From assembly GCF_019278525.1 (NCBI RefSeq), contig NZ_CP058986.1, positions 682,001 to 746,000 of the forward strand: a stretch of 64,000 nucleotides of DNA, in the 5' to 3' direction. The stretch comes from Polaribacter sp. HaHaR_3_91 (GTDB lineage Bacteria > Bacteroidota > Bacteroidia > Flavobacteriales > Flavobacteriaceae). Positions 1,489 through 60,392 of this stretch are shown here, piece by piece (within the stretch, counting starts at the first letter, position 1; each line of letters begins with the position of its first letter). Under the pieces are notes generated by a model. It did not search any database. It had not been told where the DNA came from and saw only the letters and a list, made by a program, of their open reading frames with translations. A program made the translations under genes and the position numbers.

Positions 1489-1492
1489 AAAA

Positions 1493-1535
1493 GAGGGAAA
1501 AAATAGAAACATTGGACCGTGAATATTTTCCCCTC
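1493..1535 (+). terminator. Stem-loop between fecR and susC
   Basis: GAGGGAAAA at 1493-1501 can pair with TTTTCCCCTC at 1526-1535 with one bulged base. It could attenuate readthrough from the regulator gene into the receptor gene. There is no good downstream T-run on the plus strand, so a terminator role is inference. Confidence 0.35.
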
Positions 1536-1588
1536 CTAAATTCAATTCAATCAATTAAATGTTTAACTAATCAAACTTATGCAAATTT

Positions 1589-4933: not shown

Positions 4934-4937
4934 GAAT

Positions 4938-6374: not shown

Positions 6375-6435
6375 AAATTGTACTTCCAAAAGTAGGAGTA
6401 ACTAAAACTTTACAGTTTATTTTAATTGTTGAGAT

Positions 6436-6472
6436 CTCTTTCTAAATTTTATTTTTAATAAGTTAGAAAGAG
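6436..6472 (+). terminator. Stem-loop downstream of susD
   Basis: A perfect 10-bp inverted repeat, CTCTTTCTAA (6436-6445) and TTAGAAAGAG (6463-6472), with a 17-base loop. It lies 60 bases after the susD stop and may end or protect the receptor transcript. It lacks a T-tract, so intrinsic termination is uncertain. Confidence 0.4.
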
Positions 6473-6616
6473 GTAATAATGATACTTTAGAAATAACATA
6501 TAGGAATACAGCTTTTGTATAGCTTAGTTTTCTTACATGTATGTTCTAGGTATAAAACCATTAATTACAATTATATTTTATTCAAACTAGATAAAAATAA
6601 AATTTTATAAATAATA

Positions 6617-13280: not shown

Positions 13281-16200
13281 ATGACAAGAGTAGTATTATT
13301 CATTTTTTTTATAACATTACAAACTTTTGGTCAACAAATTAAATTTGATAATTTTTCGATAAACGAGGGTTTATCTAATAATTCTGTAAAAGATATCGAA
13401 AATGATATTAATGGAGGTTTATGGATTGCAACTTGGGATGGTTTAAATTATTTTGATGGATATATATTTACTTCCTTTAAACATGACATTAACAACAGTA
13501 ATTCCATCGCTGGTAACTACATCAGCAAAGTTAAACAAGATATAAAAGGTACAATTTGGATTATTACAGAAGATGCGAAAATAAGTAGATACTTAGGTAA
13601 TAAAAAATTTAAAAATTACACTTTTAAGAACAAACCAAATGATATCTCTGTTACAAAAGATGGTAATATTTTAGTTCACACTCAAAATAGCTGTTACGAA
13701 TTTGTTGCTGGTCAATTTAAAGAAACCAATAGACAAACATCAAAAATAAACAACAACGCTTTAAGTAGCATTCTTTTAACAAAATACCCAAACCTTATTA
13801 TTAATGATGTTTTAAAAGATAAAACAGGTAATATTTGGTATGCCACTCGTAAAAATGGTTTATTCATCATTAAAAATATATTAGACAAAGCCAATAAATA
13901 TCATATAGAAAATTACACAAAAGACCCTTATTCTAAAGAAAGTTTTAAAAGTAATGAAGTAGAAACTTTACACGAAGATTATTTTGGAAACATTTGGCTT
14001 GGCTTAAAAGATGGTGGAATTAGTATGGCGTATTCTAATTCTGATAAGATAGCATCTATTGCACCTCACCCAATAAAATCTCCTAACATTCCTAATGAAA
14101 CTTTACGTGCAATAACCAAAGATCTACAAGGTAAACTTTGGTTAGGTTATTACACAAAAGGACTATATAATTACAATTCTACTTCTAAAAACTACAAAGA
14201 ATTTATAATTAAAGAAGCTATCAATGAGCCAGATTGGAAACGTATAAGGTCTTTGTTTACCGCTTCTGATGGAACTATTTGGGCAGGAACTTATGCTGGA
14301 ATTATTAGAATAGAAAAAAATGGAAATTATAATTTATATAATTCTAAGAACAATAAAAACATACCTAACAATAGAAATTATTCTATTTACGAAGATAGTG
14401 ATAAACAATTATGGGTTGCTTGCTGGGGTGGAGTTGCTAAATTTAATCTAAACACAAATAATTTTGAGTCTTTTATTGGACAAGAATTAATTCGTAAATA
14501 TCATATTAGAAATTTAAAATTGATAGATAACGAGCTTATTCTTGCTACAGAAAATAATGGACTACAATTATTAGATATTAGCAAAGGAAAATTAAAAACA
14601 ATAGAAACCCAAAATAACCTTTCTGATTATCATAAAGAGCAAAAAAACACTTTAAAATCTAATAATAATAATAATAATAATAATAAAGGTTTAAAATTAA
14701 TTGATATTAAAAATGGCGAATTACAATCTATAAATACTAATAAAGGTCTTTTAAGTAATAGTATTTATGCTGTTTATAAAGATGAAAAAACAAATTATTA
14801 TTGGATTGCATCACTTGGTGGATTAAGTGTTTTTAGTAAAGAAAAAGGTATTATTAAGAATATTACAGAAAAAGAAGGTTTACCTAGCCAATTAATTTAC
14901 GGTATTTTAGATCATAAAGAGCAAGTTTGGTTAAGTACTACTAAAGGAATTGTTGTGATTGATAAAAAAAGTTTTGAAGTAAAAACTTTTCATCCAAAAG
15001 GAGGTTGGCAAGTTTCTGAATTTTCTGAAGGCGCTTATTATCAGGGTGCTAAAGGTGATTTGTTTTTTGGTGGAATTAATGGTTTAAATTATTTTAATCC
15101 TAGTAATATTCAGTTTAATAACACTAAGTCAAAAATTAAATTACTGGTTGATGATAGTGAAAACTTCTCTCCAAATATTATAAAAAGTCATAATGAAAAT
15201 CAGATTAGTATTGATTTAATTCCGATTAGATTCCCTAAAAAAACAGAGAAAAATATCTATTATAAATTAGAAGGCTTAGATAGTAATTGGACTTTATTAG
15301 ATATCAATAACAACATAAAATATCAAAATTTAACTTCTGGAAGTTATAATTTTTTACTTAAAGAAGGAAAAGAAAATGAAGAAGAATTACTTTTCTCCTT
15401 ACAAATAAAAAAGGCTTTTTATAAAACGAACTTATTTTATGTGCTCTTATCAGTATTTATATTAATTACAGCAATAATACTTATCTACCTTAAGAATTTA
15501 AGAACAAAATCACTTCAAAAAAACCTAGAAAAAAAGATTTTAATTCGTACAAATGTCATCGAAAATCAAAAAAAAGATTTAGAGGTTATTAACAATCAAT
15601 TAGATGAAAAAAATAAAGAAATTTTACGTCAAAAAGAGACACTTTTAAAACTACATAACAATCTTAAAAATGAAGATTTTGAAGTCGAAAAATTTAAAAC
15701 ATTTGTTTTATCAGAGTTTCAAGAACCTGTTTCTAAAATTTTACAAACTGCAAATTGTTTGTCAGAAAATTCTGATGATAAAAAAACTATTTTAGAAGAG
15801 TCTAACAAAATGGTAAACCTAATTTCTGAATGGAATTATCTAAGCCACGTAAAAGAAATTGGAGCTATTAAGACTTCTGTAATTAATTTATTTCCGGTTT
15901 TAAAAAACAGTATTAATAAGTTAGAGGAATCTTTACAAACCAATAAAGTAGATTTTAATTTTAATATAGACACTTCTATTAATTGGGTAGAAATAGATGT
16001 TTTACGTTTTCGTTTAATGCTACAATACTTTTTTAATGACATTAATAAATACTCAGATAATAGCAGTAAGTTAAACTTAAAAATCAATTATAAGAATTCT
16101 TTTGTAATTATAGAAATTTCCTCTAATAGTGATCTTTTAAAAAATAATTGGTACAGTGTTTTACATTACAGTCCTTATTTTAAAGCGTTACAAACTCTTT

Positions 16201-17117
16201 TGGTTGATTTAAAAGGAAAACTTATTAATTATAATTTAGACCAAGAATTTAAGGTAGCATTACAAATACCAATTACTAAAATAAACCCGAAGGATAAATC
16301 TATAGAAACTATTTCGTGGAAACATTTTAATCAACAAGAAAATTTATCTGCAGACAAAAAAAATGTATTAATCTTTAGTGATGAAGAAAATTTTGCAGCT
16401 GCAAATCAAATTTTAGAACATAATAATTATAATTTAATTTTTGAAAACTCTGCAAATAATTTAAACTCGATTACCAAACAAATTCAGATACATATTGTTG
16501 TAATCTATCAAGTTTCTTTCTCTAAAGATCTTTTATATTTTATCAATAATTCTGATGCAACAAAAAACAAGAAAATCGCTATAATTTATATATCAGAAGA
16601 TATTAATTACGAACTAAGAGAACAATCGATTGAGTTTGGTGTAGACACTCTTATTCAGCTTCCGGTAAGTGAATCTTTTATTCAAAAAAAAATAGACTCT
16701 TTAATAAATAGAAAATATGTTTCTATTGAAGAAAATAAATTTCAAGAAAAAATATTCGATATTTTAACAGGTAAAGATCTTGTTTTAACGGCTAATGATA
16801 AATTATTAAAAAAGAGTTTAGAAGTTATAAAGAAAGAATTACATAACTCTTCTTTTAATGTAGAAATGTTGGTAGACTTATTAGATGTTTCTAGGGTAAA
16901 GTGTTATCGATTATTTAAAGAGCGGTTAAAACAATCTCCTTCAGATGTAATTATGTCTCTTAGACTACAAAAAGCAGAAGCTTTGTTAAAAACTAAAAAA
17001 TTAAACATCTCTGAAATAAGTTTTGAGTGCGGTTATAACGATCCAAAATATTTTGGAAAAGCATTTAAAAAGCATTTTGGAAAAAGCCCTAAAGAGTTTA
17101 AAGATCAATTTAACTAA
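13281..17117 (+). CDS. HTCS-like one-piece sensor/AraC regulator with degenerate kinase and receiver
   Basis: Has the layout of Bacteroidota hybrid two-component regulators, which sense a periplasmic ligand and activate a SusCD locus. Parts in order: signal peptide (about 1-17), two-bladed Reg_prop/propeller sensor (about 20-640, repeated GNIWLGLKDGG-type motifs), Y_Y_Y domain (about 650-710), membrane helix (about 717-738), coiled coil (about 740-800), kinase-like region (about 803-1003), receiver-like region (about 1026-1148) and an intact AraC/HTH_18 domain (about 1183-1278, ending CGYNDPKYFGKAFKKHFGKSP). The phosphorelay residues are missing. The H-box reads VLSEFQEPVS, with Ser (about 811) where His belongs; N- and G-boxes are not recognisable. 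The receiver has VVIYQVSF where the Asp motif should be and lacks the conserved Lys. An (AAT)8 tract encodes eight Asn at 461-468 inside the propeller. Next to the SusCD-phosphatase genes it presumably regulates. Signalling would have to be non-phosphorylative (inference). Confidence 0.85.
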   Translation: MTRVVLFIFFITLQTFGQQIKFDNFSINEGLSNNSVKDIENDINGGLWIATWDGLNYFDGYIFTSFKHDINNSNSIAGNYISKVKQDIKGTIWIITEDAKISRYLGNKKFKNYTFKNKPNDISVTKDGNILVHTQNSCYEFVAGQFKETNRQTSKINNNALSSILLTKYPNLIINDVLKDKTGNIWYATRKNGLFIIKNILDKANKYHIENYTKDPYSKESFKSNEVETLHEDYFGNIWLGLKDGGISMAYSNSDKIASIAPHPIKSPNIPNETLRAITKDLQGKLWLGYYTKGLYNYNSTSKNYKEFIIKEAINEPDWKRIRSLFTASDGTIWAGTYAGIIRIEKNGNYNLYNSKNNKNIPNNRNYSIYEDSDKQLWVACWGGVAKFNLNTNNFESFIGQELIRKYHIRNLKLIDNELILATENNGLQLLDISKGKLKTIETQNNLSDYHKEQKNTLKSNNNNNNNNKGLKLIDIKNGELQSINTNKGLLSNSIYAVYKDEKTNYYWIASLGGLSVFSKEKGIIKNITEKEGLPSQLIYGILDHKEQVWLSTTKGIVVIDKKSFEVKTFHPKGGWQVSEFSEGAYYQGAKGDLFFGGINGLNYFNPSNIQFNNTKSKIKLLVDDSENFSPNIIKSHNENQISIDLIPIRFPKKTEKNIYYKLEGLDSNWTLLDINNNIKYQNLTSGSYNFLLKEGKENEEELLFSLQIKKAFYKTNLFYVLLSVFILITAIILIYLKNLRTKSLQKNLEKKILIRTNVIENQKKDLEVINNQLDEKNKEILRQKETLLKLHNNLKNEDFEVEKFKTFVLSEFQEPVSKILQTANCLSENSDDKKTILEESNKMVNLISEWNYLSHVKEIGAIKTSVINLFPVLKNSINKLEESLQTNKVDFNFNIDTSINWVEIDVLRFRLMLQYFFNDINKYSDNSSKLNLKINYKNSFVIIEISSNSDLLKNNWYSVLHYSPYFKALQTLLVDLKGKLINYNLDQEFKVALQIPITKINPKDKSIETISWKHFNQQENLSADKKNVLIFSDEENFAAANQILEHNNYNLIFENSANNLNSITKQIQIHIVVIYQVSFSKDLLYFINNSDATKNKKIAIIYISEDINYELREQSIEFGVDTLIQLPVSESFIQKKIDSLINRKYVSIEENKFQEKIFDILTGKDLVLTANDKLLKKSLEVIKKELHNSSFNVEMLVDLLDVSRVKCYRLFKERLKQSPSDVIMSLRLQKAEALLKTKKLNISEISFECGYNDPKYFGKAFKKHFGKSPKEFKDQFN
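14661..14684. repeat. In-frame (AAT)8 trinucleotide repeat
   Basis: Eight consecutive AAT codons encode poly-Asn within the sensor propeller. Similar sequence lies on each side (GLQLLDISKGKLKTIET before, GLKLIDIKNGELQSINT after), as if a propeller strand had been duplicated around the repeat. Length change by slippage would stay in frame. Confidence 0.8.
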
Positions 17118-17157
17118 ACCGTTTGTTGCTGTAGGATTTTCTTAACGTTAGGGAATT

Positions 17158-17168
17158 GTTACTGTAAC
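17158..17168. promoter_or_regulatory. Small palindrome in the regulator-susC gap (operator candidate)
   Basis: GTTAC-T-GTAAC is a perfect inverted repeat 41 bases after the regulator stop and about 127 bases before susC. An AraC-type activator would bind in this gap, but its sites are usually direct repeats, so this is only a candidate. No clear TAnnTTTG promoter element is visible before susC. Confidence 0.2.
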
Positions 17169-17294
17169 GAAAACACACCTAATCTGCTTCTTTTCTATGC
17201 TGATTTGAATGATTAATACTCTTTGATGAAACAAAAACACCCCAACCAACACTTTCTGTAAATTAGTTTTACCACAATTTAAAAATCAAACTAG

Positions 17295-20264
17295 ATGAAA
17301 AAAATTTATTTAATTTTAATACTTGCATTAGGTTTTACTTCCTATTCTATTGCGCAAGTTAACGTGTCTGGAACCGTAGTTTCTGATGCAGATGGAATAC
17401 CAATACCTAATGTTTCTGTTGTTTTAAAAGGACAGCTTAATACAGGAACTATAACAGATTTTGATGGAGTTTTCTCTATCAATTTAAATGATGAAAATGG
17501 CGTTTTAATATTTTCATATTTAGGTTATGAGACTAAAGAAGTTCTTTATGCTGGAAACCAAAAATTAAATATCATTTTAAAAGAAGAAGCAAATTCTTTG
17601 GATGAGGTGGTTATAGTAGGTTATGGATCTCAAAAAAGATCTGATGTAACTGGAGCAATTTCTTCTGTAAAAAATGAAGATTTTAACCAAGGAGTTGTTG
17701 CAAACGCGGGTCAACTTTTACAAGGTAAAGTTGCCGGTGTAAACGTATCTTCTTCTAGTGGTGAGCCTGGTGCTACACAAGATATTGTTATTAGAGGTGT
17801 TGGTAGTTTGCGTTCTGGTACTACTCCGCTTTATATTGTAGATGGTTTTGCATTAGATAATTCTGGTAATGGTATTGCTACTAATCCGTTAAACTTTATA
17901 AATCCACAAGATATAGAAAGTATAGAAGTTTTAAAAGACGCTTCTTCAACTGCAATTTACGGTTCTAGAGCAGCTAATGGTGTTATTGTAATTACTACAA
18001 AAAAAGGAAAAAAAGGAAGAAACAAAGTAAACTTAAACGTCTCTAGTGGTTTTTCTACGCTAGCAAATAAAGTAGATGTTTTTACTGCTGATGAATTTAG
18101 AGCTAATGTAACTGCCGTAAATGGTACTTTAATTGATGGAGGAGCATCTACAAATTGGCAAGATGAATTAACAAGAACTGCGGTGTCAAAAAACATTAAC
18201 CTTTCTATGAGTGGAGGTACAGAAAATTCTTCTTACGCAGCTTCTGTAGGTGTAGATGATCAAGAGGGTATTTTAAGAAACAGTAACTTAAAACGTTACT
18301 CTGGTCGTTTAAACTTAACTCAAAAAGCAATTGACGATAAATTTAATGTTACTTTTAATTTAACAGCGACTAAATTAGACAATATAAGACCTAATTCTGG
18401 TAGTGTTGTAAGTGATATGCTAAGCCTTAACCCAACAGACTCCCCTTATGAAAATGGTGAATTAAAAGGAAACTTAAGTAACGATATTTTAAATCCTTTT
18501 ATTGGAGAAACAATTTATGGCGATTACACAAACAACAACCGTATTTTGGCTAATATTTCTCCTTCTTATAAAATTGCAAAAGGTTTAACTTATAAATTAA
18601 ATCTTGGTGTAGATTATTCTATTACAGAAAGAGATGTGCAATACATGCCTTACGCTACAGAAACAAATACAACTTTAGGAAGCTTAAATACAGCCACTAC
18701 TAAAAACAGCAATACTCTTATAGAGAATACTTTAACGTATAGTTTTCATAAGAAATTAAGTAGTTTTACTTTGCTATTGGGACATACCTACCAACAAACT
18801 GAAGTAAATCAAAAACAATTTTATTTAGAAGGTTTTCCAGATAATGGAGTAGAGCCAAGATATCAAATAGAAACGGCAAACCAGCAAACAACTCAGTCTG
18901 CTTATGCTACTAAAAATGAGTTGCAATCTTTCTTTGGTAGAGTAAATTATACCTTTAATGATAAATATTTAATGACTGCAACAATGCGTGCAGATGGTTC
19001 TTCTAAATTTGGTGAGAATAATAAATATGGATATTTCCCTTCTGTTGCCTTAGGATGGAACATCAATAAAGAAAATTTCTTGAAGGATTCTGATAACATC
19101 AACAACTTAAAATTAAGAGCAAGTTGGGGGCAAACGGGTAGTCAAGAAATTCCTTCTAAAATAACACAAGCTAGTTATACAGAAAGTAATACGGATAACA
19201 ACACATACCCATTAGATTCTAGCGCATCAGATTTAGGCGGATATCCTTATGGTTCTATCTTTACTCGTTTAGCAAACCCAAATATTCAATGGGAAGTTTC
19301 TACACAGGCAAATATTGGTTTAGACTTTGGTTTATTTGGTAACAAGTTGACAGGTACAATCGATTATTTTAATAAAATTACAGACAACATTTTATTACAA
19401 GTTACTCCTACAGATCCTATTGTTCCGGTTTCTAGTTATTGGACTAACATTCCTAATATGGAAATTAGAAACAACGGGGTTGAAATTGCCTTAGATTACA
19501 ACAATACTATAAATAAAGACTTCACTTATAATATTGGTGGTAACATTTCTATCACTAAAAACGAAGTTGTAAACTCTCCTTATCAAATATTAACAACTGG
19601 TGCCGCACAAGGTTCAGGACAAACAGGAGCTACAATTAATGGTGTTTTAAACGGAGAAGCTATTGGTACTTTTTATGTTCAAGAATTTACCGGAATTGGA
19701 GAAGATGGTTTAAATCAATTTGCAGACATTAATAATGATGGTGAAATTTTAGATGATGACCGTATTGTAGCTGGTAATGCTTTACCAGATTATATTTATG
19801 CATTCTACTTAAATTTTAATTACAAAAAATTCGATTTAGGGTTAAATTTTAATGGAGCTGGTGGTAATAAAATTTACAACCACGTTGCTATGTCTTCTTT
19901 TAACAAAGGAAATTTAGCCAATTCTTTTAACACGACAGATAGAGCTGTAGAATATTTAGATGAATCTGCAACAAATTCTAACTTAGTTTCTACAAGATAT
20001 TTAGAGGACGGAGATTTTTTAAGATTAAACAATGCAACTTTAGCTTACAATTTTACGCCAGAAGCATTAGGTCTTGGAAATAGCATCAAAAATCTTCGCT
20101 TATCAATTACAGGTCAAAACTTATTTGTGATAACAGATTACAGTGGTTTCGATCCAGAGATTAATACAGGAAGTCCTGTTGGAGGTATTCAAACTTTTGG
20201 TATCGACTATTACAGTTATCCAAAAAGTAGAACAATCCTTTTAAGTCTAAATGTAGAATTTTAA
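17295..20264 (+). CDS. SusC-like TonB-dependent receptor of the phosphatase locus
   Basis: Outer-membrane importer. The signal peptide ends after SYSIAQ (about residue 21). A carboxypeptidase-regulatory-like domain follows (about 23-100, VVSDADGIPIPNVSVVLKG), then the TonB plug (about 110-235, starting at SLDEVVIVGYGSQKRSDVTG), then the barrel. No STN domain is present, so unlike the receptor at 1589 it should not signal through FecR; control by the adjacent AraC-domain regulator fits. Length 989 aa is normal. SusD follows after 10 bases. Two alkaline-phosphatase genes downstream suggest that the ligand is a phosphate ester or a phosphorylated polymer, which is inference from context only. 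Confidence 0.93.
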   Translation: MKKIYLILILALGFTSYSIAQVNVSGTVVSDADGIPIPNVSVVLKGQLNTGTITDFDGVFSINLNDENGVLIFSYLGYETKEVLYAGNQKLNIILKEEANSLDEVVIVGYGSQKRSDVTGAISSVKNEDFNQGVVANAGQLLQGKVAGVNVSSSSGEPGATQDIVIRGVGSLRSGTTPLYIVDGFALDNSGNGIATNPLNFINPQDIESIEVLKDASSTAIYGSRAANGVIVITTKKGKKGRNKVNLNVSSGFSTLANKVDVFTADEFRANVTAVNGTLIDGGASTNWQDELTRTAVSKNINLSMSGGTENSSYAASVGVDDQEGILRNSNLKRYSGRLNLTQKAIDDKFNVTFNLTATKLDNIRPNSGSVVSDMLSLNPTDSPYENGELKGNLSNDILNPFIGETIYGDYTNNNRILANISPSYKIAKGLTYKLNLGVDYSITERDVQYMPYATETNTTLGSLNTATTKNSNTLIENTLTYSFHKKLSSFTLLLGHTYQQTEVNQKQFYLEGFPDNGVEPRYQIETANQQTTQSAYATKNELQSFFGRVNYTFNDKYLMTATMRADGSSKFGENNKYGYFPSVALGWNINKENFLKDSDNINNLKLRASWGQTGSQEIPSKITQASYTESNTDNNTYPLDSSASDLGGYPYGSIFTRLANPNIQWEVSTQANIGLDFGLFGNKLTGTIDYFNKITDNILLQVTPTDPIVPVSSYWTNIPNMEIRNNGVEIALDYNNTINKDFTYNIGGNISITKNEVVNSPYQILTTGAAQGSGQTGATINGVLNGEAIGTFYVQEFTGIGEDGLNQFADINNDGEILDDDRIVAGNALPDYIYAFYLNFNYKKFDLGLNFNGAGGNKIYNHVAMSSFNKGNLANSFNTTDRAVEYLDESATNSNLVSTRYLEDGDFLRLNNATLAYNFTPEALGLGNSIKNLRLSITGQNLFVITDYSGFDPEINTGSPVGGIQTFGIDYYSYPKSRTILLSLNVEF

Positions 20265-20274
20265 TAAGACAAAA

Positions 20275-22020
20275 ATGAAAAACATAATAAAAAATACAGT
20301 ATTTGCAATTAGCATTCTATTAATGTCTAGCTGTAGTGATTTAAAAGAAGAAGTTTTAGATGAATCTTTAACTGGTGCAGGACAAGCAGAAGCAATTAGT
20401 GGAGCAATTGCACCTGCGTACGGTCAGGTTGCTTGGACTTGGAGACACACAAACTATTACGGTTTGCAATTAATACCAAGTGATGAGGCAATTTTACCTT
20501 ACAGAGGAGGTACAGATTGGTATGATGGTGGTAAATTTTTAGCGGCTCATTCTCATTCTATAACTTCTACAAATGATTTGGTAAAAAGTGCTTGGACAGA
20601 ACTTACAATAAATATTTCTAGAACATTAACTGCTATAGAAGTTCTTACGCCAATGGCTGAAGAAGGAAATACAGAAGCAGAAAGTGCTCTTTATGAAATG
20701 AAAGCGCTTAGAGCTTATTTAAATATGTTAACTTTAGATAGTTGGGGACTTGCATTTAAAAAAGAATCTTCTAATGAAAACTCAGAAATTCTTAGAGGGC
20801 AAGATGCAGTAGATTATATAGAAAGCGAATTGTTATCTGTTGTTGATGTGATAAATACTGATAAAGGTTCTGGTAGAATGACACAATCTGCCGTTTGGGG
20901 ATTTTTAGCAAGATTAAATCTAAATGCTGCTGTTTATAGAAATCCTTACGGAACTCCTAATTTTACAACAGAAGACATGGATAAAGTTATTGAATATACA
21001 GATAATATTATCAATTCAGGTAAGTTTTCTTTATCTCCAGAATATTTCGATTTATTTAATGATAGTAATAGCAATAATGCAGAATTAATTTTCGCATTAG
21101 ATCAACGTGGAGTTTTAAAGAATGAACATAGCCGTTGGGCATATTGGTCTTTACCAGGTTCTATGTTTCCTAGGCCAGAATTTACAAATGCAGATGGTAC
21201 AGATGGTCCTGCAATTACATCAGACTTTTACCAAACTTGGGTAGATGCTTATGGTAGTGTAGATCCTGCAGACGCAGATCCTAGATTTCTTCAGAAAAAT
21301 ACCCAAGAAGTTACTTATGGTTTAGATGATCTTACAGGTCTTTCTCCTTTAAATGACGAAGATCATTATTACTGTGTAGGAGCAGAAGATTTTGAAATAG
21401 ACAGAGGTATTTTAAGAGGAGTAACTTGGGCTGTTAGAAAAGATGAAAATGGTGCTTTTTATACTTGTGATGAAGGTTATAGAATTTATCCAGTAAAGCA
21501 AATTAAAGGAAACGGTACAGATAAAAATGTAGATTACGTAAACCTTACTCAACAAGCAGATTTTACAAACGAAGGTAGAGCACACCATACAGGTTATCGA
21601 GTTTCTAAATATCAATTTAGCCACACTTCTAATAATGGAAATAACTACAGTAGTGTAGACTTAGTGTTAATGCGTTATGCAGAAATTTACATGATGCGCG
21701 CAGAAGCTAAATTAAGAAAAGGAGATGTTGCTAGTGCTTTAGCAGATGTAAATACAATAAAAACATCAAGAAATGCACGAGAACCAATAGCAACCGCTCT
21801 TTCATCAATAGATTTAGATGTATTATATAGAGAACTTGGTTTTGAGTTTTATTGGGAGGGTTTAAGAAGAACAAATCAAATCCGTTTTAGTCACTACGAA
21901 GATTCATGGACAGAAAAAACAGATACAGATGTAAATAATAGGTTATTTCCTATTCCACAAGTGGCTATAGATGGAGCTTCTAACACGCCAGGGTATTTAG
22001 AACAAAATAAAGGATATTAG
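20275..22020 (+). CDS. SusD/RagB-like binding lipoprotein of the phosphatase locus
   Basis: Outer-leaflet lipoprotein partner of the SusC just upstream. Lipobox LLMSSC places the lipidated Cys near residue 20. The fold is recognisable from the central LRAYLNMLTLDSWG helix region, the MRYAEIYMMRAEAKLRKGD segment near 465-485, and the C-terminal GLRRTNQIRFSHYE, FPIPQ and NTPGY motifs. At 581 aa it is longer than the SusD at 4938, with extra loops between about 300 and 450. These are rich in aromatic and acidic residues and may form the ligand site. A strong terminator follows the gene, so receptor levels may exceed those of the downstream phosphatases. Confidence 0.92.
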   Translation: MKNIIKNTVFAISILLMSSCSDLKEEVLDESLTGAGQAEAISGAIAPAYGQVAWTWRHTNYYGLQLIPSDEAILPYRGGTDWYDGGKFLAAHSHSITSTNDLVKSAWTELTINISRTLTAIEVLTPMAEEGNTEAESALYEMKALRAYLNMLTLDSWGLAFKKESSNENSEILRGQDAVDYIESELLSVVDVINTDKGSGRMTQSAVWGFLARLNLNAAVYRNPYGTPNFTTEDMDKVIEYTDNIINSGKFSLSPEYFDLFNDSNSNNAELIFALDQRGVLKNEHSRWAYWSLPGSMFPRPEFTNADGTDGPAITSDFYQTWVDAYGSVDPADADPRFLQKNTQEVTYGLDDLTGLSPLNDEDHYYCVGAEDFEIDRGILRGVTWAVRKDENGAFYTCDEGYRIYPVKQIKGNGTDKNVDYVNLTQQADFTNEGRAHHTGYRVSKYQFSHTSNNGNNYSSVDLVLMRYAEIYMMRAEAKLRKGDVASALADVNTIKTSRNAREPIATALSSIDLDVLYRELGFEFYWEGLRRTNQIRFSHYEDSWTEKTDTDVNNRLFPIPQVAIDGASNTPGYLEQNKGY

Positions 22021-22039
22021 TTGTTTATTGTTTTATTTT

Positions 22040-22073
22040 AAGGGAGCTCTTTTATAAAAATAGCTCCCTTTTT
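22040..22073 (+). terminator. Rho-independent terminator between susD and the phosphatase genes
   Basis: AAGGGAGCT (22040-22048) pairs with AGCTCCCTT (22062-22070), a GC-rich stem for this genome, followed by T residues. It should cut most transcription before the phosphatases, leaving readthrough or a weak promoter at 22074-22117 to express them. Confidence 0.85.
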
Positions 22074-22117
22074 CTATTATAATATTAATAAAAATATACT
22101 TTCAAATTTTTTGAAAA

Positions 22118-23221
22118 ATGAAGAAAATTATAATACTGAGTTTAATTTCTATGTTTTACATAGGATGTGAAAAAAAATCAGAAAAAAGAACCCAAGAAGA
22201 ACCGTTAAATATCATTTTTATGATTGGTGATGGTATGGGACTTACCCAAATTTCTACTGCTTTTTATTTTGGAAAAGAAACGCCTAATTTTGAGCAATTT
22301 AAAAATATTGGTTTTATAAAAACACCAAGTACAAGTCATACAATTACAGATTCTGCGGCAGGTGCTACTGCTTTTTCAACAGGAGAAAAAACATATAAAA
22401 GAGCCATTGGCATGTCTAAAGATAGTTTGCCTTTGCCTACAATTTTAGAAACTTTACAAAAAGAAGACTATCAGACTGGTTTTGTAACTTTAACACCAGT
22501 TACACATGCAACTCCTGCTTCTTTTTATGCACATGTAAAGGATAGAGACTTACATGAAGAAATCGCTTTAGATTTAGTAAAATCTAATGTAGATTTTTTT
22601 GTTGGTGGAGGTTTAAAATACTTAAAACGTAGAACTGATAAAAAAGATTTATATACAGCGTTAATTGCAAAAAACTACCAATTAGATTCTGTGAGTTTAT
22701 CAAAGTTTGATGTAAACAAAAAGAACGGATATTTACTAGCCGAAGAAGGTTTGCCTTCTAAAACAGAGGGTAGAAAAAGTTTTTTACAAGATGCAACTCA
22801 ATTAGGTTTAGATTATTTTACTAAGAAAGGAAAACCATTCTTTTTTATGATAGAAGGTTCTTATATAGATTGGGGAGGACATGCAATGGATGCAGAGTTA
22901 TTAAAACAAGAAGTCTTAGATTTTGACAAAACAATTGGTGTGGTTTTAAGATACATAAAAGAACATCCAAATACACTTTTAGTGGTTACTGCAGATCATG
23001 AAACAGGAGGTGTTAGTATTGGTAAATCTTATATGATAGATGAAGAAACCGGAGAAAAATCTGAAGAAGTAGATAATGTTTCTATCAATTTTAACAACGA
23101 TCAACATAGTGGAACTTTAATTCCGGTTTTTGCAGAAGGGGAAGGTTCAGAAAATTTTCAGGGTATTTATGAAAATAATGAAATTTACCATAAAATGTTT
23201 AAAGCAATCAATAATAAATAA
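22118..23221 (+). CDS. PhoA-type alkaline phosphatase, lipoprotein
   Basis: Releases phosphate from phosphomonoesters outside the cytoplasm. The short signal peptide ends in a lipobox-like YIGC (Cys about 17). PhoA-family landmarks follow in order: metal Asp in MIGDGMG (about 37-43), catalytic Ser79 in TDSAAGATA, the THATPASFYAHVKDR block with the metal Thr and substrate-binding Arg, IDWGGHAMD (metal Asp and His), ADHETGG (metal Asp-His) and QHSGTLIPVF (last metal His). All the metal and nucleophile positions look intact. At 367 aa it is compact, lacking the large crown insert of some marine enzymes. The next gene encodes a second phosphatase 7 bases downstream. Context suggests it processes material handled by the SusCD pair. 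Confidence 0.92.
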   Translation: MKKIIILSLISMFYIGCEKKSEKRTQEEPLNIIFMIGDGMGLTQISTAFYFGKETPNFEQFKNIGFIKTPSTSHTITDSAAGATAFSTGEKTYKRAIGMSKDSLPLPTILETLQKEDYQTGFVTLTPVTHATPASFYAHVKDRDLHEEIALDLVKSNVDFFVGGGLKYLKRRTDKKDLYTALIAKNYQLDSVSLSKFDVNKKNGYLLAEEGLPSKTEGRKSFLQDATQLGLDYFTKKGKPFFFMIEGSYIDWGGHAMDAELLKQEVLDFDKTIGVVLRYIKEHPNTLLVVTADHETGGVSIGKSYMIDEETGEKSEEVDNVSINFNNDQHSGTLIPVFAEGEGSENFQGIYENNEIYHKMFKAINNK

Positions 23222-23228
23222 GATTAAA

Positions 23229-25025
23229 ATGAAACAAAAAACAAATATATTTTTAATAGTATTGGTTTTCTTTTTAGGATTAAACAATACAGTTATTGCA
23301 CAAGAAGAAGTGATGGTTCATTCTCACAACGATTACAATCAATCAGTACCTTTTTGGAATGCTTTTGCAAACGGAGCAACTTCTTTTGAAGCTGACATTT
23401 TTCTAAAAGACAACAATTTGTTTGTTGCTCATAATTATGAAGATATTTCCCCATCAAAAACATTAGAAGCTTTATATCTAAAGCCATTAGAAACTGTTTT
23501 TAATATGGAGTACAAAAAGGAAGAACAATTAATCCTTTTGATTGATATTAAATCTGATGCTTTTAAAACCTTAGAAAAACTTATAGAAGTTCTAAAAAAA
23601 CATACTTCTATAATTAACAATAAGCAGATTAAAATTGTTGTTTCTGGAAACAGACCAAAAGCTAAAGATTATGTCAATTATCCTGATTTTATCTTTTTTG
23701 ATTATCAAGAATTAGAAACTTCGGTTTCATCAGAAATTTGGAAAAAAATTGCTATGGTTAGTTTAGATTTTAAACAATTTTCTCAATGGAATGGAAAAGG
23801 AAGGTTAACACATGATGATGAAAATCGTATTGTAGAGGTTTTAGAAAAAGCAAATAAAACGAATAAACCTTTTCGTTTTTGGGGAAGTCCAGATTCTAAA
23901 AGAGCATGGAGAACTTTATCTGAAATGGGAGTTGCAATCATAAATACAGATCATCCTTTTAAGTGTGTTAATTATTTTAAATCTTTACCAAGCAGACTGG
24001 TAACTTCAACTACTTTTTCTGAAGTTTACAAGCCAAGTTTTAACAACGATCAAAAAGACTCACCTGTTAAAAACATTATTTTATTAATTGGAGATGGAAA
24101 TGGTTTGGCTCAAATTTCATCTACAGCACTTGCAAATAATGGCGAATTAACTTTAACTCAATTAAAAAGTATTGGCTTTATAAAAACACAAGCTGCAGAC
24201 GATTTTACAACAGATTCTGCTGCTGCAGGTACTGCTTTAGCAACCGGAGTTAAAACAAATAACAGAGCAATTGGTACAGGAGTAAATGGAGAGCCTTTAA
24301 AAAATATTACAGAAATTTTAAGCGAACAAGGTTTTTCTACAGCATGTATCACTACAGATAATATTTTAGGAGCAACACCCGCTTCATTTTACGCACATGC
24401 AAAAGATAGGTCTGATGATTCTATAATTTCTAAAGATTTAATTAATAGTAGACTTAATCTTTTTATTGGAGGTGGAGCTTCTACTTTTAAAAAGACAAAC
24501 CTTACGGATAACTTTAAAATAGTTTCATCTTTTAATGATTTAAAAAATACTACGGATGACAAAGTAGGTTTTTTTATGTCTGAACATGGTATGAAATGGA
24601 TTACAGAAGGAAGAGGTAGTGTTTTAGCTGATGCAACCAAAACTGGGCTTAATTTTTTAAGGAAAAAACAAAAACCTTTCTTTTTGATGATTGAAGCTGC
24701 AAAGATAGATCACGCAGGTCATTCTAATGATACCGCAGGAATTTTAGCAGAATCGATAGATTTTGATAAAGCAATTACAGAAGCTTTAATATTTGCAGAT
24801 AATAACCCAGAAACTTTGGTTATTATAACAGCAGATCATGAAACATCTGGTTTTAGCATTCCGCAAGGCGATGTAAAAACACACCAAATAGAAGGTTATT
24901 TTGCTTCTTATGATCATACTGCAATTATGGTTCCTATTTTTGCATATGGAGCTAAGTCAAACGAGTTTCAAGGAGTTTATGAAAATAATGAAGTGTTTTC
25001 TAAAATACTTAAAGTTTTAAAATAG
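23229..25025 (+). CDS. Fusion of GDPD/PI-PLC-like phosphodiesterase with alkaline phosphatase
   Basis: Two-domain exported enzyme. The signal peptide ends after TVIAQ (about residue 20). Residues about 25-260 resemble the PI-PLC/glycerophosphodiester phosphodiesterase barrel, with HSHNDY (31-36), FEAD with Glu54 and Asp56, and VAHN with His68, the expected acid-base and metal residues. Residues about 280-598 are a complete alkaline phosphatase: LIGDGNG, catalytic Ser330 in TDSAAAGTA, ATPASFYAHAKDR, IDHAGHSND, ADHETSG and DHTAIMVPIF. One protein could thus cut a phosphodiester and then strip the phosphate from the monoester produced. An upstream ATG in this frame at 23130 lies inside the preceding gene; ATG 23229, 7 bases after that gene and right before the signal peptide, is preferred. 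Substrate is unproven. Confidence 0.9.
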   Translation: MKQKTNIFLIVLVFFLGLNNTVIAQEEVMVHSHNDYNQSVPFWNAFANGATSFEADIFLKDNNLFVAHNYEDISPSKTLEALYLKPLETVFNMEYKKEEQLILLIDIKSDAFKTLEKLIEVLKKHTSIINNKQIKIVVSGNRPKAKDYVNYPDFIFFDYQELETSVSSEIWKKIAMVSLDFKQFSQWNGKGRLTHDDENRIVEVLEKANKTNKPFRFWGSPDSKRAWRTLSEMGVAIINTDHPFKCVNYFKSLPSRLVTSTTFSEVYKPSFNNDQKDSPVKNIILLIGDGNGLAQISSTALANNGELTLTQLKSIGFIKTQAADDFTTDSAAAGTALATGVKTNNRAIGTGVNGEPLKNITEILSEQGFSTACITTDNILGATPASFYAHAKDRSDDSIISKDLINSRLNLFIGGGASTFKKTNLTDNFKIVSSFNDLKNTTDDKVGFFMSEHGMKWITEGRGSVLADATKTGLNFLRKKQKPFFLMIEAAKIDHAGHSNDTAGILAESIDFDKAITEALIFADNNPETLVIITADHETSGFSIPQGDVKTHQIEGYFASYDHTAIMVPIFAYGAKSNEFQGVYENNEVFSKILKVLK

Positions 25026-25491: not shown

Positions 25492-26514
25492 CTACAAACA
25501 ATCTTTAATCATTTTTACTGCTTGTTCTGCAGTTATATCTCTTTGAGGAGTTCCAAACATTTCGTAACCAACCATAAATTTCTTTACAGAAGCACTTCTT
25601 AATAAAGGTGGATAAAAACTCATGTGGAAATGCCAATGTTTGTTGTCATTACCATCTGTTGGTGCTTGATGAATTCCGCTAGAATATGGAAAAGAAGTAT
25701 TAAAAATCTTGTCGTATGCTTTTGTTAATACAGAAATTGCTTCTCCGTATTGTAACGTTTCAGCTTCTGTCATTTCTAAGATGTTAGCCAAAGGCCTTTT
25801 TGGAACAATCATTGCTTCGAAAGGCCAAATAGCCCAAAACGGAACTAAAACTACAAAACCATCATTTTCAAAAATAATACGTTCTTGCTTTTCTAATTCT
25901 TGTGCTAAATAATCACCCAATAAACTACTATTGTTGTTATTGAAGTAGTTTAATTGTTGTGTGTTTTTTTTATCAACTTCGTTTGGTAAAGAAGATTGAC
26001 TCCAAATTTGTCCGTGAGGATGCGGATTACTACAGCCCATTACTGCACCTTTGTTCTCAAATATTTGAACGTAATTTATGTTTGGGTTTTCAGACAATTC
26101 TTTAAACTCTCTTTGCCATGCAAAAACAACTTTCTGAATTTCTGTAGCCGACATGTCTGCCAAACTTTTTGAGTGATCTGGGCTAAAGCAAATTACCTTA
26201 CAAATACCAGTTTCACTCTGTGCTTTTAAAAGTCCGTCGTTTACGTTAAACGTTGGCGAATCATTTTGTAAAGCAGCAAAATCATTTGTAAAAACAAAAA
26301 CGTCTTTATAATCTGGGTTTACTTCTCCGTTAATTCTTGTGTTTCCTGCACATAAATAACAAGATTCATCATGTGTTGGTCTTTTTTCATTATTAACTTC
26401 TTCATTTTGTCCTTGCCAAGGTCTTTTTGCTCTATGAGGTGAAACTAACACCCATTCTCCTGTAAGAATATTAAATCGCTTGTGCGAATAGTCTTGTAAA
26501 TTTGTATTGCTCAT
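25492..26514 (-). CDS. galT: Galactose-1-phosphate uridylyltransferase (GalT)
   Basis: Leloir-pathway enzyme exchanging galactose-1-phosphate with UDP-glucose to give UDP-galactose and glucose-1-phosphate in the cytoplasm. The HIT-type active site reads CSNPHPHGQIW (about residues 160-170), with the nucleophilic His in HPH. N-terminal RFNILTGEWVLVSPHRAKRPW and the zinc-site CYLCAGN are also visible, and GIHQAPTDG and HWHFHMSFYPPL mark the C-terminal half. The 340-aa length is normal. It is the last gene of a minus-strand galM-galK-galT order, 15 bases after galK. Expression is likely controlled by the adjacent GntR regulator. Confidence 0.96.
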   Translation of the reverse strand: MSNTNLQDYSHKRFNILTGEWVLVSPHRAKRPWQGQNEEVNNEKRPTHDESCYLCAGNTRINGEVNPDYKDVFVFTNDFAALQNDSPTFNVNDGLLKAQSETGICKVICFSPDHSKSLADMSATEIQKVVFAWQREFKELSENPNINYVQIFENKGAVMGCSNPHPHGQIWSQSSLPNEVDKKNTQQLNYFNNNNSSLLGDYLAQELEKQERIIFENDGFVVLVPFWAIWPFEAMIVPKRPLANILEMTEAETLQYGEAISVLTKAYDKIFNTSFPYSSGIHQAPTDGNDNKHWHFHMSFYPPLLRSASVKKFMVGYEMFGTPQRDITAEQAVKMIKDCL

Positions 26515-26529
26515 TTTCTTGTGTTGTAA

Positions 26530-27681
26530 TTATTGGTTTACGATATGTGTACCTTCAGAAAGTTCAATAAAATACACTGAACATTCATTATTAAATTCAT
26601 TTTTATAGGCTTCAGATGCCGTTTCTGCAAAAGCTTTTGCTTCGCTTTTATCAATTAAATTAATGGTGCAACCACCAAAACCACCGCCCATCATTCTTGC
26701 GCCTAAAACGTGTTTGTTTTTCTTAGCCTGTGCTACTAAAAAGTCTAATTCATCGCAACTTACTTTGTATTGATTAGATAGACCTTCGTGAGATTGGTAA
26801 ATTAAAGCACCTAACAATTCTAAATTATTGTCTTCAATTGCCTTTGCTGCTTTTATGGTTCTGTTATTTTCTTGAATTACAAATAAGGTTTTTTGATAAT
26901 TTGCAGGTGTCACTTTATCAGCAACAGTTTCTAAATCTGCTTCAGTAGCATCTCTTAATGCCTTTATGTTTAATAATTCAGATACACTTTCGCAAGCAGA
27001 ACGTCTGTCATTATAAGCACTGTCTGATAAACTATGTTTAACGTTGGTGTTTATCAACATTAATTGATGATTTTCGAAATCAATTTTATAAGGATTCGAT
27101 TCTACAGTTCTACAATCTAAATGCAATGCATGGTCTTTAATACCAAACATACTAGCATATTGATCCATAATTCCGCAGTTTACACCTACATAATTATGCT
27201 CTGCTTTTTGAGATATTAAAATCATTTCGTGTTTGGTTAAACCTAAATCAAACAATTCATTTAAACCAAAAACAACACTATTTTCTAAAGCAGCAGAAGA
27301 AGACATACCTGCACCTCCAGGAATATTTCCTTTAAAGATGATGTTGAAATTGCCAATCACTTTGTTTTTATTCTGTATTTCTGCAACAACACCAAAAACG
27401 TAGTTTTCCCAACTTCCTTCTTTAGAAGGCTTTATTTTATCTAATTCAAATTTTATGGTACTGTCTAAATCTAAAGCGATGGCTGTAGAGTTATTAGCGT
27501 CAGTTTTTTGAATAGCAGCAGCAATACCTTTATTTACAGCTGCTGGAAATACAAAACCATCATTATAATCTGTATGTTCTCCAATAATATTAATTCTTCC
27601 AGGAGAAAAAATTAATAAAGGTTCCGTTTTAAATTCTTTGATAAATGTCTCTTTAACATCCTTAATTAGTGTTGCACTCAT
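26530..27681 (-). CDS. galK: Galactokinase (GalK)
   Basis: Phosphorylates galactose with ATP to galactose-1-phosphate, feeding GalT. GHMP-kinase motifs are clear: the galactokinase signature GRINIIGEHTDYNDGFVFP near residues 28-46, the ATP loop GGAGMSSSAALE near 120-131, and MMGGGFGGCTI near the C-terminus. Start at 27681 (MSATLIKDV) gives 383 aa, the usual size, and lies 11 bases after galM. The longer frame starting at 27720 would overlap galM by 28 bases and add 13 residues of no family resemblance. Co-transcribed with galM and galT. Confidence 0.95.
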   Translation of the reverse strand: MSATLIKDVKETFIKEFKTEPLLIFSPGRINIIGEHTDYNDGFVFPAAVNKGIAAAIQKTDANNSTAIALDLDSTIKFELDKIKPSKEGSWENYVFGVVAEIQNKNKVIGNFNIIFKGNIPGGAGMSSSAALENSVVFGLNELFDLGLTKHEMILISQKAEHNYVGVNCGIMDQYASMFGIKDHALHLDCRTVESNPYKIDFENHQLMLINTNVKHSLSDSAYNDRRSACESVSELLNIKALRDATEADLETVADKVTPANYQKTLFVIQENNRTIKAAKAIEDNNLELLGALIYQSHEGLSNQYKVSCDELDFLVAQAKKNKHVLGARMMGGGFGGCTINLIDKSEAKAFAETASEAYKNEFNNECSVYFIELSEGTHIVNQ

Positions 27682-27692
27682 AATTTGCTTCG

Positions 27693-28583
27693 TTAATTGT
27701 TGATTATGTTTATTTTCCAAACAATGGAATATTTTTCATTAGGGTCTAGTGTTTGTAATCCTATTTTATTATTAAAACTATTAGAAACACCTGTGGTTGG
27801 CTCAATGGCTATGGTATTTAATCTAGGTGGCGTATATGCTTGTAAATAATTTTTGGTACCTGAAGATTGAAAGTTTAATTGATATTTAGGAGTGTTAAAC
27901 GCTACTTTGTCAGAATTTAAACCCCAACAATCATCCAATTGTTTTTTCTCGATATCTAAATGTATCATAGAATTTACAGTCTCAGAGCCAGTAGTAATAT
28001 TACGGTCACCAATAATTAATTGTTGATCACAATCAAAATTTAGAGAACTTTTTGCTAAATTATCACTGATGAAATACGGGTGCCACCCTAAAGTAAACGG
28101 AAAAGGTTTAGCGTCGGTATTTCTTACACTAACAGATAAATCTAGCCCATCATTTGTAAAAATATAAGTAACTACAATTGTGTATGTATACGGAAAACCA
28201 TCATTTCGTATGTTTTCATTATACTCTACAGTTATTTTAGCATTATCTGCAGATGCTTCTTTTGCAATTACTTTAAACGTTTTATTGTACACAAAACCAT
28301 GCAATGCATTTTGCTCTTCTTCTTGGTTTTTTTCTAATTGAAAATCTTCATTATTAAAAGAATATTTTCCATCTTTAATTCTATTTGCAAACGGAAATAA
28401 AATAGAAGAGGCAAATGTAGAATCGTATGTCAATGGAGCTAAATCTTGAATAATGGCATTTCCGCCTAAAGTTAGTTCTTGTAAACTAGCTCCTTCATTT
28501 AGATGAATTTTACCAAAAACCGTGTTTTCAGTATTTTTTACTTCTAAAATATTTGTTTCTGTGTTATGGTTTATGGTATACAA
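27693..28583 (-). CDS. galM: Aldose 1-epimerase (galactose mutarotase)
   Basis: Interconverts alpha and beta anomers of hexoses so that galactokinase receives alpha-galactose. A beta-sandwich sugar-epimerase fold is indicated, with conserved His in LHGFVYN (about 96), His in LGWHPYF (about 170, catalytic acid) and Glu in IAIEPTTGVSNSFNN (about 268, catalytic base). The 296-aa length fits the shorter bacterial class. No signal peptide, so cytoplasmic. It sits between the GntR regulator (8-base gap upstream) and galK. Among epimerase subfamilies it might act on other hexoses, but the operon argues for galactose. Confidence 0.9.
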   Translation of the reverse strand: MYTINHNTETNILEVKNTENTVFGKIHLNEGASLQELTLGGNAIIQDLAPLTYDSTFASSILFPFANRIKDGKYSFNNEDFQLEKNQEEEQNALHGFVYNKTFKVIAKEASADNAKITVEYNENIRNDGFPYTYTIVVTYIFTNDGLDLSVSVRNTDAKPFPFTLGWHPYFISDNLAKSSLNFDCDQQLIIGDRNITTGSETVNSMIHLDIEKKQLDDCWGLNSDKVAFNTPKYQLNFQSSGTKNYLQAYTPPRLNTIAIEPTTGVSNSFNNKIGLQTLDPNEKYSIVWKINIINN

Positions 28584-28590
28584 TGTGTTG

Positions 28591-29583
28591 TTATATTGAG
28601 TTTCTAATAATTAATTTATTCGGATTTTCTACTTTGTCTTGTTCTTTGTTCAAAATCATTTTGGCTAACCTTTTTCCCATTTCGTTAAAATCTGTAGTAA
28701 TGGTGGTAATGCCTCCTTCAACTATTTCCTTTAATAATGTATCGTTATAAGAAATAACGCCAATATCATTTACTAAAGTCATATTCTGACTTTTCATTTT
28801 CTTGATAATTCTTAGTAAACTTATATCATCTAGCAATACGTAAAGTTCACCTTTTATTAAAGGAGTTTCTTTTACAGTGCTTAAAATTTCAAAAGGCATT
28901 GTGCTTTGTTCGCAGAATTGTGTAAACCCTTTAAGAATGCCTTTAGGTTGTTTTTCTTCTGAGAAGATTAGATTAATTTTATTATATTTTGAAACAAATC
29001 CTGAAGCCTTAGTTAGGTTTTCATAGATGGATTTTTCAAAATTTTGATAGATGGATGGATATGCTACCAAATCTTCTGGCACCTGATCTAAAATATAGAC
29101 TTTATCATCTGGTAATAATTGAATGCTCTTACTGGTGTTTTCTAAATTAGCAGGCATAATTACATAATAATTATAACTACCAGCATTGTCTTTTATTAGT
29201 TTTTTAAAAATAGCTTCATTAAAATGATGAAAGAAAATATCTACCTGAATAGTGTCTTCTAAGTTTTCTAAAAAAGAATTATATAAATCTTCTTTAAATG
29301 AATTAAGTTCATCAAAAAGTAAAAATATCTTTTGATGCACATTAATATCTTCACTTATAACATAATACCCTTTTCCTACAATAGATTCTATGATACCTCG
29401 GTTCTTTAATTCATTAAAGGCCATTAAAACGGTATCTCTAGAAAGTTTATTGTTGTTTTTAATAGTATTAATAGAAGGCAATTGATCTCCTTTTTTTAAC
29501 AAACCATTTTCTATAGCATTTTCTATAGCATTAATGATTTGCTTATATTTAGGAATGCCTATTTCTTTTTTAACTTCTATCAT
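28591..29583 (-). CDS. GntR-family regulator with LacI-type sugar-binding domain (likely galactose repressor)
   Basis: Transcription factor with an N-terminal GntR winged helix (about 5-75: PKYKQIINAIENAIENGLL, then LSRDTVLMAFNELKNRGIIES). A periplasmic-binding-protein-like effector domain follows (about 80-325). The C-terminal GVISYNDTLLKEIVEGGITTI and FNEMGKRLAKMIL segments are typical of LacI/GalR folds. This hybrid class controls sugar genes in Bacteroidota. It heads the galM-K-T transcript and is divergent from the symporter, with a palindrome between them. Galactose as effector is inferred from neighbours. Length 330 aa is normal. Start ATG 29583 lies 10 bases from a TATATTTG promoter element, so the mRNA would be nearly leaderless. 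Confidence 0.88.
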   Translation of the reverse strand: MIEVKKEIGIPKYKQIINAIENAIENGLLKKGDQLPSINTIKNNNKLSRDTVLMAFNELKNRGIIESIVGKGYYVISEDINVHQKIFLLFDELNSFKEDLYNSFLENLEDTIQVDIFFHHFNEAIFKKLIKDNAGSYNYYVIMPANLENTSKSIQLLPDDKVYILDQVPEDLVAYPSIYQNFEKSIYENLTKASGFVSKYNKINLIFSEEKQPKGILKGFTQFCEQSTMPFEILSTVKETPLIKGELYVLLDDISLLRIIKKMKSQNMTLVNDIGVISYNDTLLKEIVEGGITTITTDFNEMGKRLAKMILNKEQDKVENPNKLIIRNSI

Positions 29584-29592
29584 AATTAATTA

Positions 29593-29600
29593 CAAATATA
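29593..29600 (-). promoter_or_regulatory. TAnnTTTG promoter element for the gntR-gal operon
   Basis: Minus strand reads TATATTTG, a full match to the Bacteroidota -7 consensus, ending 10 bases before the gntR ATG. No clear TTG -33 element at the usual distance was found. Confidence 0.5.
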
Positions 29601-29645
29601 TAATTTTTTCAACAAAAAACCTACCTGACCCTACTAGTTTGATAA

Positions 29646-29667
29646 AAATGTACTCAGAGGTACATTT
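29646..29667. promoter_or_regulatory. Palindromic operator candidate between gntR and the symporter
   Basis: AAATGTAC and GTACATTT are perfect inverted 8-mers separated by six bases (TCAGAG), in the centre of the divergent gap. Symmetry and half-site size suit a dimeric GntR regulator that could control both directions. Regulator-operator pairing is inference. Confidence 0.55.
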
Positions 29668-29705
29668 CTTTGGGCTTACAGATACATTTTCTGAAATTAT
29701 ATACA

Positions 29706-29713
29706 TATATTTG
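29706..29713 (+). promoter_or_regulatory. TAnnTTTG promoter element for the sugar symporter
   Basis: TATATTTG matches the flavobacterial -7 consensus and lies 38 bases before the symporter ATG. The palindrome at 29646-29667 is just upstream, where a bound regulator could block or assist polymerase. Confidence 0.6.
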
Positions 29714-29751
29714 ACTTGTATAAATAATTAACTAAAACAAAAATAATAATT

Positions 29752-59953: not shown

Positions 59954-59957
59954 ATTG

Positions 59958-60043
59958 TACTGAAGGCGGGACTTGAACCCGCACGGCCATTACTGACCAC
60001 TGGATTTTAAGTCCAGCGTGTCTACCAATTCCACCACTTCAGC
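59958..60043 (-). tRNA. tRNA-Leu(UAA), copy 1
   Basis: 86-base class II tRNA. The acceptor stem GCTGAAG pairs with CTTCAGT, discriminator A. Anticodon stem-loop CTGGACTTAAAATCCAG gives anticodon TAA. A long variable arm (TGGTCAGTAATGGCC region) and GGTTCAAGTCC in the T-arm confirm leucine. It has its own promoter at 60143-60173. Confidence 0.97.
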
Positions 60044-60388: not shown

Positions 60389-60392
60389 ATTG

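Follow-up and report, generated by a model that had tools for sequence, protein, structure and literature searches.

A probable PUSII-like phosphodiester locus in Polaribacter linked to a dedicated regulator with the shape of a hybrid two-component system

Which nutrient is served by a SusCD transporter whose neighbours encode phosphatases, and what kind of regulator controls it? This question is raised by a five-gene locus at positions 13281..25025 of a 64,000-nucleotide stretch of the Polaribacter sp. HaHaR_3_91 genome (hereafter the window; positions 682001-746000 of NZ_CP058986.1, the one contig, of 4,208,346 bases, of this genome). The locus encodes, on the plus strand and in this order, a regulator shaped like a hybrid two-component system (HTCS), SusC, SusD, a PhoA-type alkaline phosphatase and a GDPD/PI-PLC-PhoA fusion, all as full-length open frames. 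We conclude that it is most likely a PUSII-like phosphodiester locus (PUS, 'phosphate utilisation system'), in a distinct variant linked to a dedicated non-canonical regulator, and that the regulator family and a sequence element upstream of susC are its interesting part.

The original prediction, made from the sequence without database searches, had described five adjacent plus-strand genes combining a SusCD pair with two phosphatases, one of them carrying a GDPD/PI-PLC-like domain, and the gene order, the frames and the family matches all confirmed this description. SusC (17295..20264, plus strand, 989 aa) is a TonB-dependent transporter (TIGR04056, 801 bits), and SusD (20275..22020, plus strand, 581 aa) is assigned by its family match, with a lipobox predicted at Cys20 that marks it as a lipoprotein; the relatives of SusD in the PDB are distant. 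The smaller phosphatase (22118..23221, plus strand, 367 aa; PF00245, 206 bits) is probably a lipoprotein, as judged from its lipobox YIGC. The SusCD pair is thus co-located with phosphomonoesterase and phosphodiesterase genes, the arrangement by which a PUS is recognised. A Pfam scan found no carbohydrate-active enzyme (CAZyme) among the five genes, where a glycan polysaccharide utilisation locus (PUL) would be expected to carry one, and the earlier statement that no glycosidase is present holds for this five-gene unit.

The open frame of the fusion as first listed begins at TTG 23130, within the PhoA gene; the real start is likely ATG 23229, which we preferred because a signal peptide opens there, 7 bp past the PhoA stop codon. 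Read in this way, the fusion is a protein of 598 aa (23229..25025, plus strand) that matches GDPD_2 (PF13653, 30.5 bits, cut-off 27) and PhoA (PF00245, 186 bits). We modelled its N-terminal domain alone (residues 30-275, 23316..24053, plus strand; model ma8104ab63f06, pLDDT 88.8), since a fold search with the whole fusion gave PhoA chains in all 50 best rows, and fold searches with the predicted model pointed to a GDPD/PI-PLC barrel. Residues H33, E54, D56 and H68 are invariant in the alignment of relatives, and we take them to be the catalytic His, E-x-D and His set of the GDPD/PI-PLC superfamily. The domain is 15-21% identical to GDPD and bacterial PI-PLC structures (PDB 3qvq, 2pz0, 3no3, 5fyr), and these two folds tie, so that the fold does not tell which of the two specificities it has. 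The C-terminal PhoA domain (residues 281-598, 24069..25022, plus strand; PF00245 and PDB matches) keeps the full invariant residue set, presumably the nucleophile Ser and the metal ligands. Among solved structures, the TAB5 alkaline phosphatase (PDB 2iuc) is closest to both PhoA parts of the locus; its 375-residue chain, unlike the fusion, has no GDPD domain. Because it carries a plain signal peptide and lacks a lipobox, the fusion reads as periplasmic; the idea that cleavage and dephosphorylation of the nutrient take place on the cell surface is not borne out for this protein, and only the small PhoA has the look of a lipoprotein. A third PhoA-family gene of the genome lies away from the locus, at 3069801-3071126 of the contig.

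The combination of a pf13653-bearing PhoA with an adjacent SusCD-like pair has a precedent. According to PMC8115612, PUSII of Flavobacterium johnsoniae DSM 2064 (Fjoh_3249-3252) contains Fjoh_3249, named 'PhoA1 (putative diesterase activity)', which has pf00245 and pf13653, is predicted to be a periplasmic diesterase/phosphatase and lies by PusD2, PusC2 and a FecR-like regulator; PUSII is without the CAZymes of traditional PULs, and both PusCD complexes are induced under depletion of inorganic phosphate (Pi) only. The window locus had been put forward as an undescribed system, but the same fusion architecture next to SusCD, induced by low phosphate, is already published in PUSII; the central idea is therefore right as to the kind of system, yet not new. 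PUSII differs from the window locus in its FecR-like regulator, in place of which the window has a pseudo-HTCS, and in a SusC and SusD of another class; the window locus has in addition the PhoA lipoprotein and the upstream element, and has neither a FecR-like regulator upstream nor a PusCD2-class transporter. Among the open PMC papers listed by our searches, PMC8115612 was the one direct precedent that we recognised, and in these listings we saw no report of either the regulator family or the element before susC. In the main texts, 'HTCS' and 'AraC' do not occur in PMC8115612, and 'SusC' is absent from PMC12406696.

Fusions of this kind accompany at least three SusCD classes, namely the window type, the PUSII type and one further type that goes with the window's regulator family (among others in loci L037, L063 and L083); the SusC proteins of two distant classes are ~32% identical. 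Locus L191 shows the PUSII order (sigma factor, FecR, SusC, SusD, fusion) and has an ECF sigma factor besides the FecR; its fusion is 39% identical to that of the window, and SusC and SusD of the L191 type match best a class other than the window's. Three loci mix the two arrangements: L188, L189 and L196 have the window-type HTCS, SusC and SusD together with a fusion of the PUSII-type class, 40% identical to the window fusion, and in two of them an extra gene of 323-330 aa lies between SusD and the fusion.

We then followed the locus across genomes, using as reference set the named loci chosen by their fusion (best 80 of 524 relatives). SusC lies within five open reading frames (ORFs) of the fusion in 62 of these 80 loci, and the same regulator is present in 31. 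The closest named relatives by the fusion, among the matches listed, are Polaribacter, with at most 83% identity. The full five-gene order recurs in L034, L035, L036, L047, L048 and L049, which are Polaribacter or near kin, and also in an uncultured Cellulophaga (L060). The order searched for elsewhere is therefore conserved in relatives, and a lack of conservation, which would have spoken against the original prediction, was not what we found. When 395 genomes were drawn evenly across the order (regulator at E <= 1e-100, fusion at E <= 1e-90), the regulator was detected in 13 and the fusion in 50; all 13 fell within the 50, and in each of them (13/13) the two genes lay on one contig, at most 10 kb apart. 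A sample of 150 Flavobacterium genomes gave 14 with the regulator and 33 with the fusion, all 14 being shared, two of them with the genes on different contigs (Fisher p 4.6e-11, uncorrected for kinship). Likewise, each of the 7 regulators detected in 97 relatives came from a genome with a fusion match. In one of the latter genomes (G012) the regulator is interrupted and split over two contigs. Since scoring of the regulator was confined to the best 2 to 6 candidates of each genome, distant copies may have escaped these counts. On a quick tree of 101 fusions, 9 changes are required to explain the HTCS label, and well-supported branches force at least 6 of these; the regulator module thus came or went repeatedly.

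The regulator itself (13281..17117, plus strand, 1278 aa) has a signal peptide, Reg_prop propellers, a Y_Y_Y domain, one clear hydrophobic, transmembrane (TM) stretch at residues 715-741, regions resembling a kinase and a receiver, and a C-terminal AraC-type HTH_18 domain. It has the sensor and the AraC domain on one chain, as an HTCS does, but no HisKA, HATPase or receiver model of Pfam matched it at E <= 0.001. We aligned fusion-linked relatives in 38 rows (L038 and L083 are the same species) and compared them with seven canonical HTCS controls, four from the genome of the window and three near-identical relatives (L053-L055); three proteins of L070 and two of L076 were left out of the controls because they did not align as HTCS. 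The phosphoacceptor His of the H-box is present in 7/7 controls and in 0/38 regulator rows, where the column reads S in 24, A in 11, T in 2 and N in 1. The ATP-binding G-box motif was found in the four controls from the window's genome and in none of the 38 rows; because the scan started at residue 701, it says nothing about the three shorter controls, in which no motif was found. The receiver Lys column is K in all seven controls and L or M in all 38 rows, and the receiver Asp column is D in the controls and Y in every row; read one residue further on, the latter shows Q or N in most rows and D in 3/38. A scan for the N-box gave no match in the controls either and was not used. Judged by these residues, the family is a conserved pseudo-kinase, pseudo-receiver HTCS, and the term 'HTCS-like' used in the original prediction holds for the shape (Reg_prop, Y_Y_Y, HTH_18) and fails for the mechanism, the kinase and receiver residues being lost.

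The window regulator thus has in common with the HTCS of Bacteroides PULs the periplasmic Reg_prop/Y_Y_Y part, the single TM stretch and the C-terminal AraC domain, and differs from them in lacking the phosphoacceptor His, the G-box, the receiver Lys and a conserved receiver Asp. A partial parallel is BT4236 of B. thetaiotaomicron, an HTCS with Q at the phosphoacceptor His site for which the authors suggest a phosphorylation-independent mechanism (PMC11253607). There, one protein and one residue are named, whereas here the loss takes in kinase and receiver residues alike and concerns a whole linked family, which goes with a phosphoesterase locus. The regulator gene also contains nine perfect TAA triplets (14660-14686), which coincide with an Asn run that exceeds those of L034 and L035 in length. 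Two homologues have short frames covering the C-terminal half only, G476 (401074-402756, 629 aa) and G602 (4704001-4705527, 513 aa), and may represent either a lost sensor or a split gene.

A closer look at the gap between the regulator and susC revealed a putative operator at 17147..17168 (plus strand), recognised by pattern comparison between loci: a pair of GTTA half-sites spaced 11 bp from start to start (GTTA-N7-GTTA), with NTG and NAAC after it. In the window the GTTA pair begins 148 bp upstream of the start codon of susC. In 30/32 loci, of both SusC classes, the best match to the element starts 147-155 bp upstream of susC, the two others being L095 and L099. The 30 matches comprise 11 perfect ones, 5 with one mismatch, 6 with two and 8 with three, as compared with none with up to two mismatches and 7 with three among 623 other upstream regions of the same loci; this count is partly circular because the pattern was built from the loci then counted, but the near-constant distance to susC is free of that circularity. 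One of the two matches in the whole genome with up to one mismatch is perfect, and it is the one before susC. The simplest reading of the putative element is that of a local regulator acting on a single operon.

Regarding the substrate, the proposal of a phosphorylated nutrient stands, most likely as a small organophosphate diester, in view of the GDPD/PI-PLC barrel with its conserved catalytic residues and of the phosphoesterase neighbours. In the flanks of the 80 loci, two metallophosphoesterase families recur in 15 and 12 loci and an alkaline-phosphatase-superfamily enzyme in 11; FecI/FecR genes (9, some by another SusC), GH92 relatives (7) and iol genes were also seen, and some frequent neighbours are restricted to closely related Arenibacter loci. 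Inositol catabolic genes accompany the fusion, together with a LacI-type regulator, in L070, L072, L074, L096, L100 and L103, none of them HTCS-type. In L074, iolD, iolG, iolC and iolB exceed the NCBIfam cut-offs, with iolE below; iolB is above its cut-off in 9 of the 41 fusion genomes searched, lying within the fetched locus in L074, L100 and L103 and just past its edge in L070, L072 and L096, provided that the contig numbers agree. These neighbourhoods hint that some fusions release inositol. However, iolB, the sole iol gene sought, had no match in the genome of the window, and it was above the cut-off in 0/18 HTCS-type genomes among the 41 (four had weak matches) and in 0/97 relatives, the window's genome included. 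We therefore rejected inositol as the window substrate, keeping it as a hint only, and claim no more than a small phosphodiester.

Other candidate substrates were set aside as well. Near the fusion, L066, L093, L102 and L120 (4/80) have a TIGR03364 oxidoreductase and an MFS-like transporter, with a PhnX-like hydrolase in three of them, which suggests phosphonate use at those loci; none is HTCS-type, and 2-aminoethylphosphonate was rejected for the window. Downstream of the fusion, positions 25492-31380 hold a stretch whose first four genes are convergent with it and which we take to be a galactose operon (galT, galK, galM, a GntR-type regulator and an SSS-type transporter). A galactose-containing diester was rejected on account of this convergence and of the restriction of galT, galK and galM next to the locus to the window, L034 and L035; they are not adjacent in L036. 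A PI-PLC-like gene of 636 aa (L096, L103, L114) matched PF16670 below the cut-off in the two cases tested and was not used as evidence; the L096 protein had no sequence match in the PDB.

Taken together, we consider it likely, though well short of certain, that the locus is a phosphodiester-scavenging one of the PUS kind, a variant with its own regulator that combines import by SusCD, periplasmic cleavage by the fusion and non-phosphorylating AraC control. The SusD lipoprotein would bind a small phosphodiester and SusC would take it across the outer membrane via TonB; the likeliest such ligand is the headgroup of a deacylated phospholipid, of either the glycerophosphodiester or the inositol-phosphodiester type. 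In the periplasm, the GDPD/PI-PLC domain of the fusion would cut the diester and the PhoA domain would remove the phosphate from the monoester; as both domains are in the fusion, one polypeptide could make two alcohols and Pi from a diester, and the PhoA lipoprotein may supply additional monoesterase capacity. The membrane-spanning regulator would sense the substrate or a product by its periplasmic propellers and pass the signal by conformation, not by phosphotransfer, to its AraC domain, which would bind the tandem GTTA repeats ~148 bp upstream of susC.

Several observations weigh against this proposal. The linkage is one-way, 37 of the 50 fusion-positive genomes of the order-wide sample having given no regulator match (two candidates scored per genome), and many loci whose neighbourhood was read carry FecI/FecR or lack a recognisable regulator nearby. 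The signal peptide is the single ground for placing the fusion in the periplasm. The element was counted in the loci that defined it; at up to two mismatches the 64-kb window has 1 match, and shuffled sequences average 1.04; at up to one mismatch, the 2 matches in the whole genome equal in number those of the reversed-pattern control. Finally, in 18 of the 80 loci, some of them cut by a contig end, SusC is absent within five ORFs of the fusion. The last point would fit an explanation in which the phosphatases serve general periplasmic Pi scavenging, SusCD imports an unrelated cargo and their co-location is historical, the more so as ten of those 18 are Arenibacter loci with the fusion after an M14 peptidase gene. 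We hold this to be very improbable, given that two distant SusCD classes and a PUSII-type third each sit with a fusion, and that the other-class fusion takes the same place by the window-type SusCD in L188, L189 and L196.

These three loci also bear on the view that the locus belongs to a phosphate-starvation regulon, like PUSII, and that the HTCS-shaped gene is a decayed passenger of little effect, since the regulator stays with the module there despite the exchanged fusion. The low-Pi induction of PUSII (PMC8115612) agrees with a passenger, as do the loss of all tested kinase and receiver residues and the short frames of G476 and G602; but the regulator is long, in frame and with an intact HTH across many genera, it was never found without the fusion in three genome samples, and it accompanies a conserved upstream element at a near-constant distance, all of which make a passenger unlikely. 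Slightly less probable still is that the locus is a PUL serving a phosphorylated glycan, such as phosphomannan or a teichoic-acid-like polymer, in which the phosphatases are accessory enzymes and the glycosidases are encoded elsewhere in the genome. Glycan PULs typically have SusCD and HTCS-shaped regulators, GH92 relatives occur in the fetched flanks of 7/80 fusion loci, and a galactose operon directly follows the locus in the window and in two close relatives. Against this, the five-gene unit is without a CAZyme, GH92 was not seen in the flanks of 73/80 loci (by blastp with two representatives only), L036 has no gal genes next to the locus, and three other phosphoesterase families recur by the fusion.

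Elsewhere in the window, a second SusCD unit (352-7999) is accompanied by a FecR-type protein and a thioredoxin-like protein, and two tRNA-Leu genes, both with anticodon taa, lie a few hundred bases apart (59957-60043 and 60392-60478).

The organic phosphorus use of Flavobacterium is tied to phosphate starvation in the PUS paper (PMC8115612). A tentative and rather doubtful extension of the phosphodiester-scavenging proposal is that a conserved family of non-phosphorylating transmembrane receptors derived from HTCS evolved into dedicated one-component sensors of a phospholipid headgroup, possibly an inositol phosphodiester, that it governs a SusCD importer together with a diesterase-phosphatase acting in two steps, and that organic phosphorus use in Flavobacteriaceae can be induced by substrate and not by starvation. 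If this were true, some marine and soil Flavobacteriaceae would switch on phosphodiester uptake upon meeting the substrate, and this uptake would perhaps serve carbon as well as phosphate nutrition. The inositol operons by the fusion in some relatives offer a concrete first list of candidate substrates. Moreover, with apparently one operon, one upstream element and a natural loss of kinase residues, the regulator family is a natural test case for phosphotransfer-free signalling by HTCS-shaped receptors.

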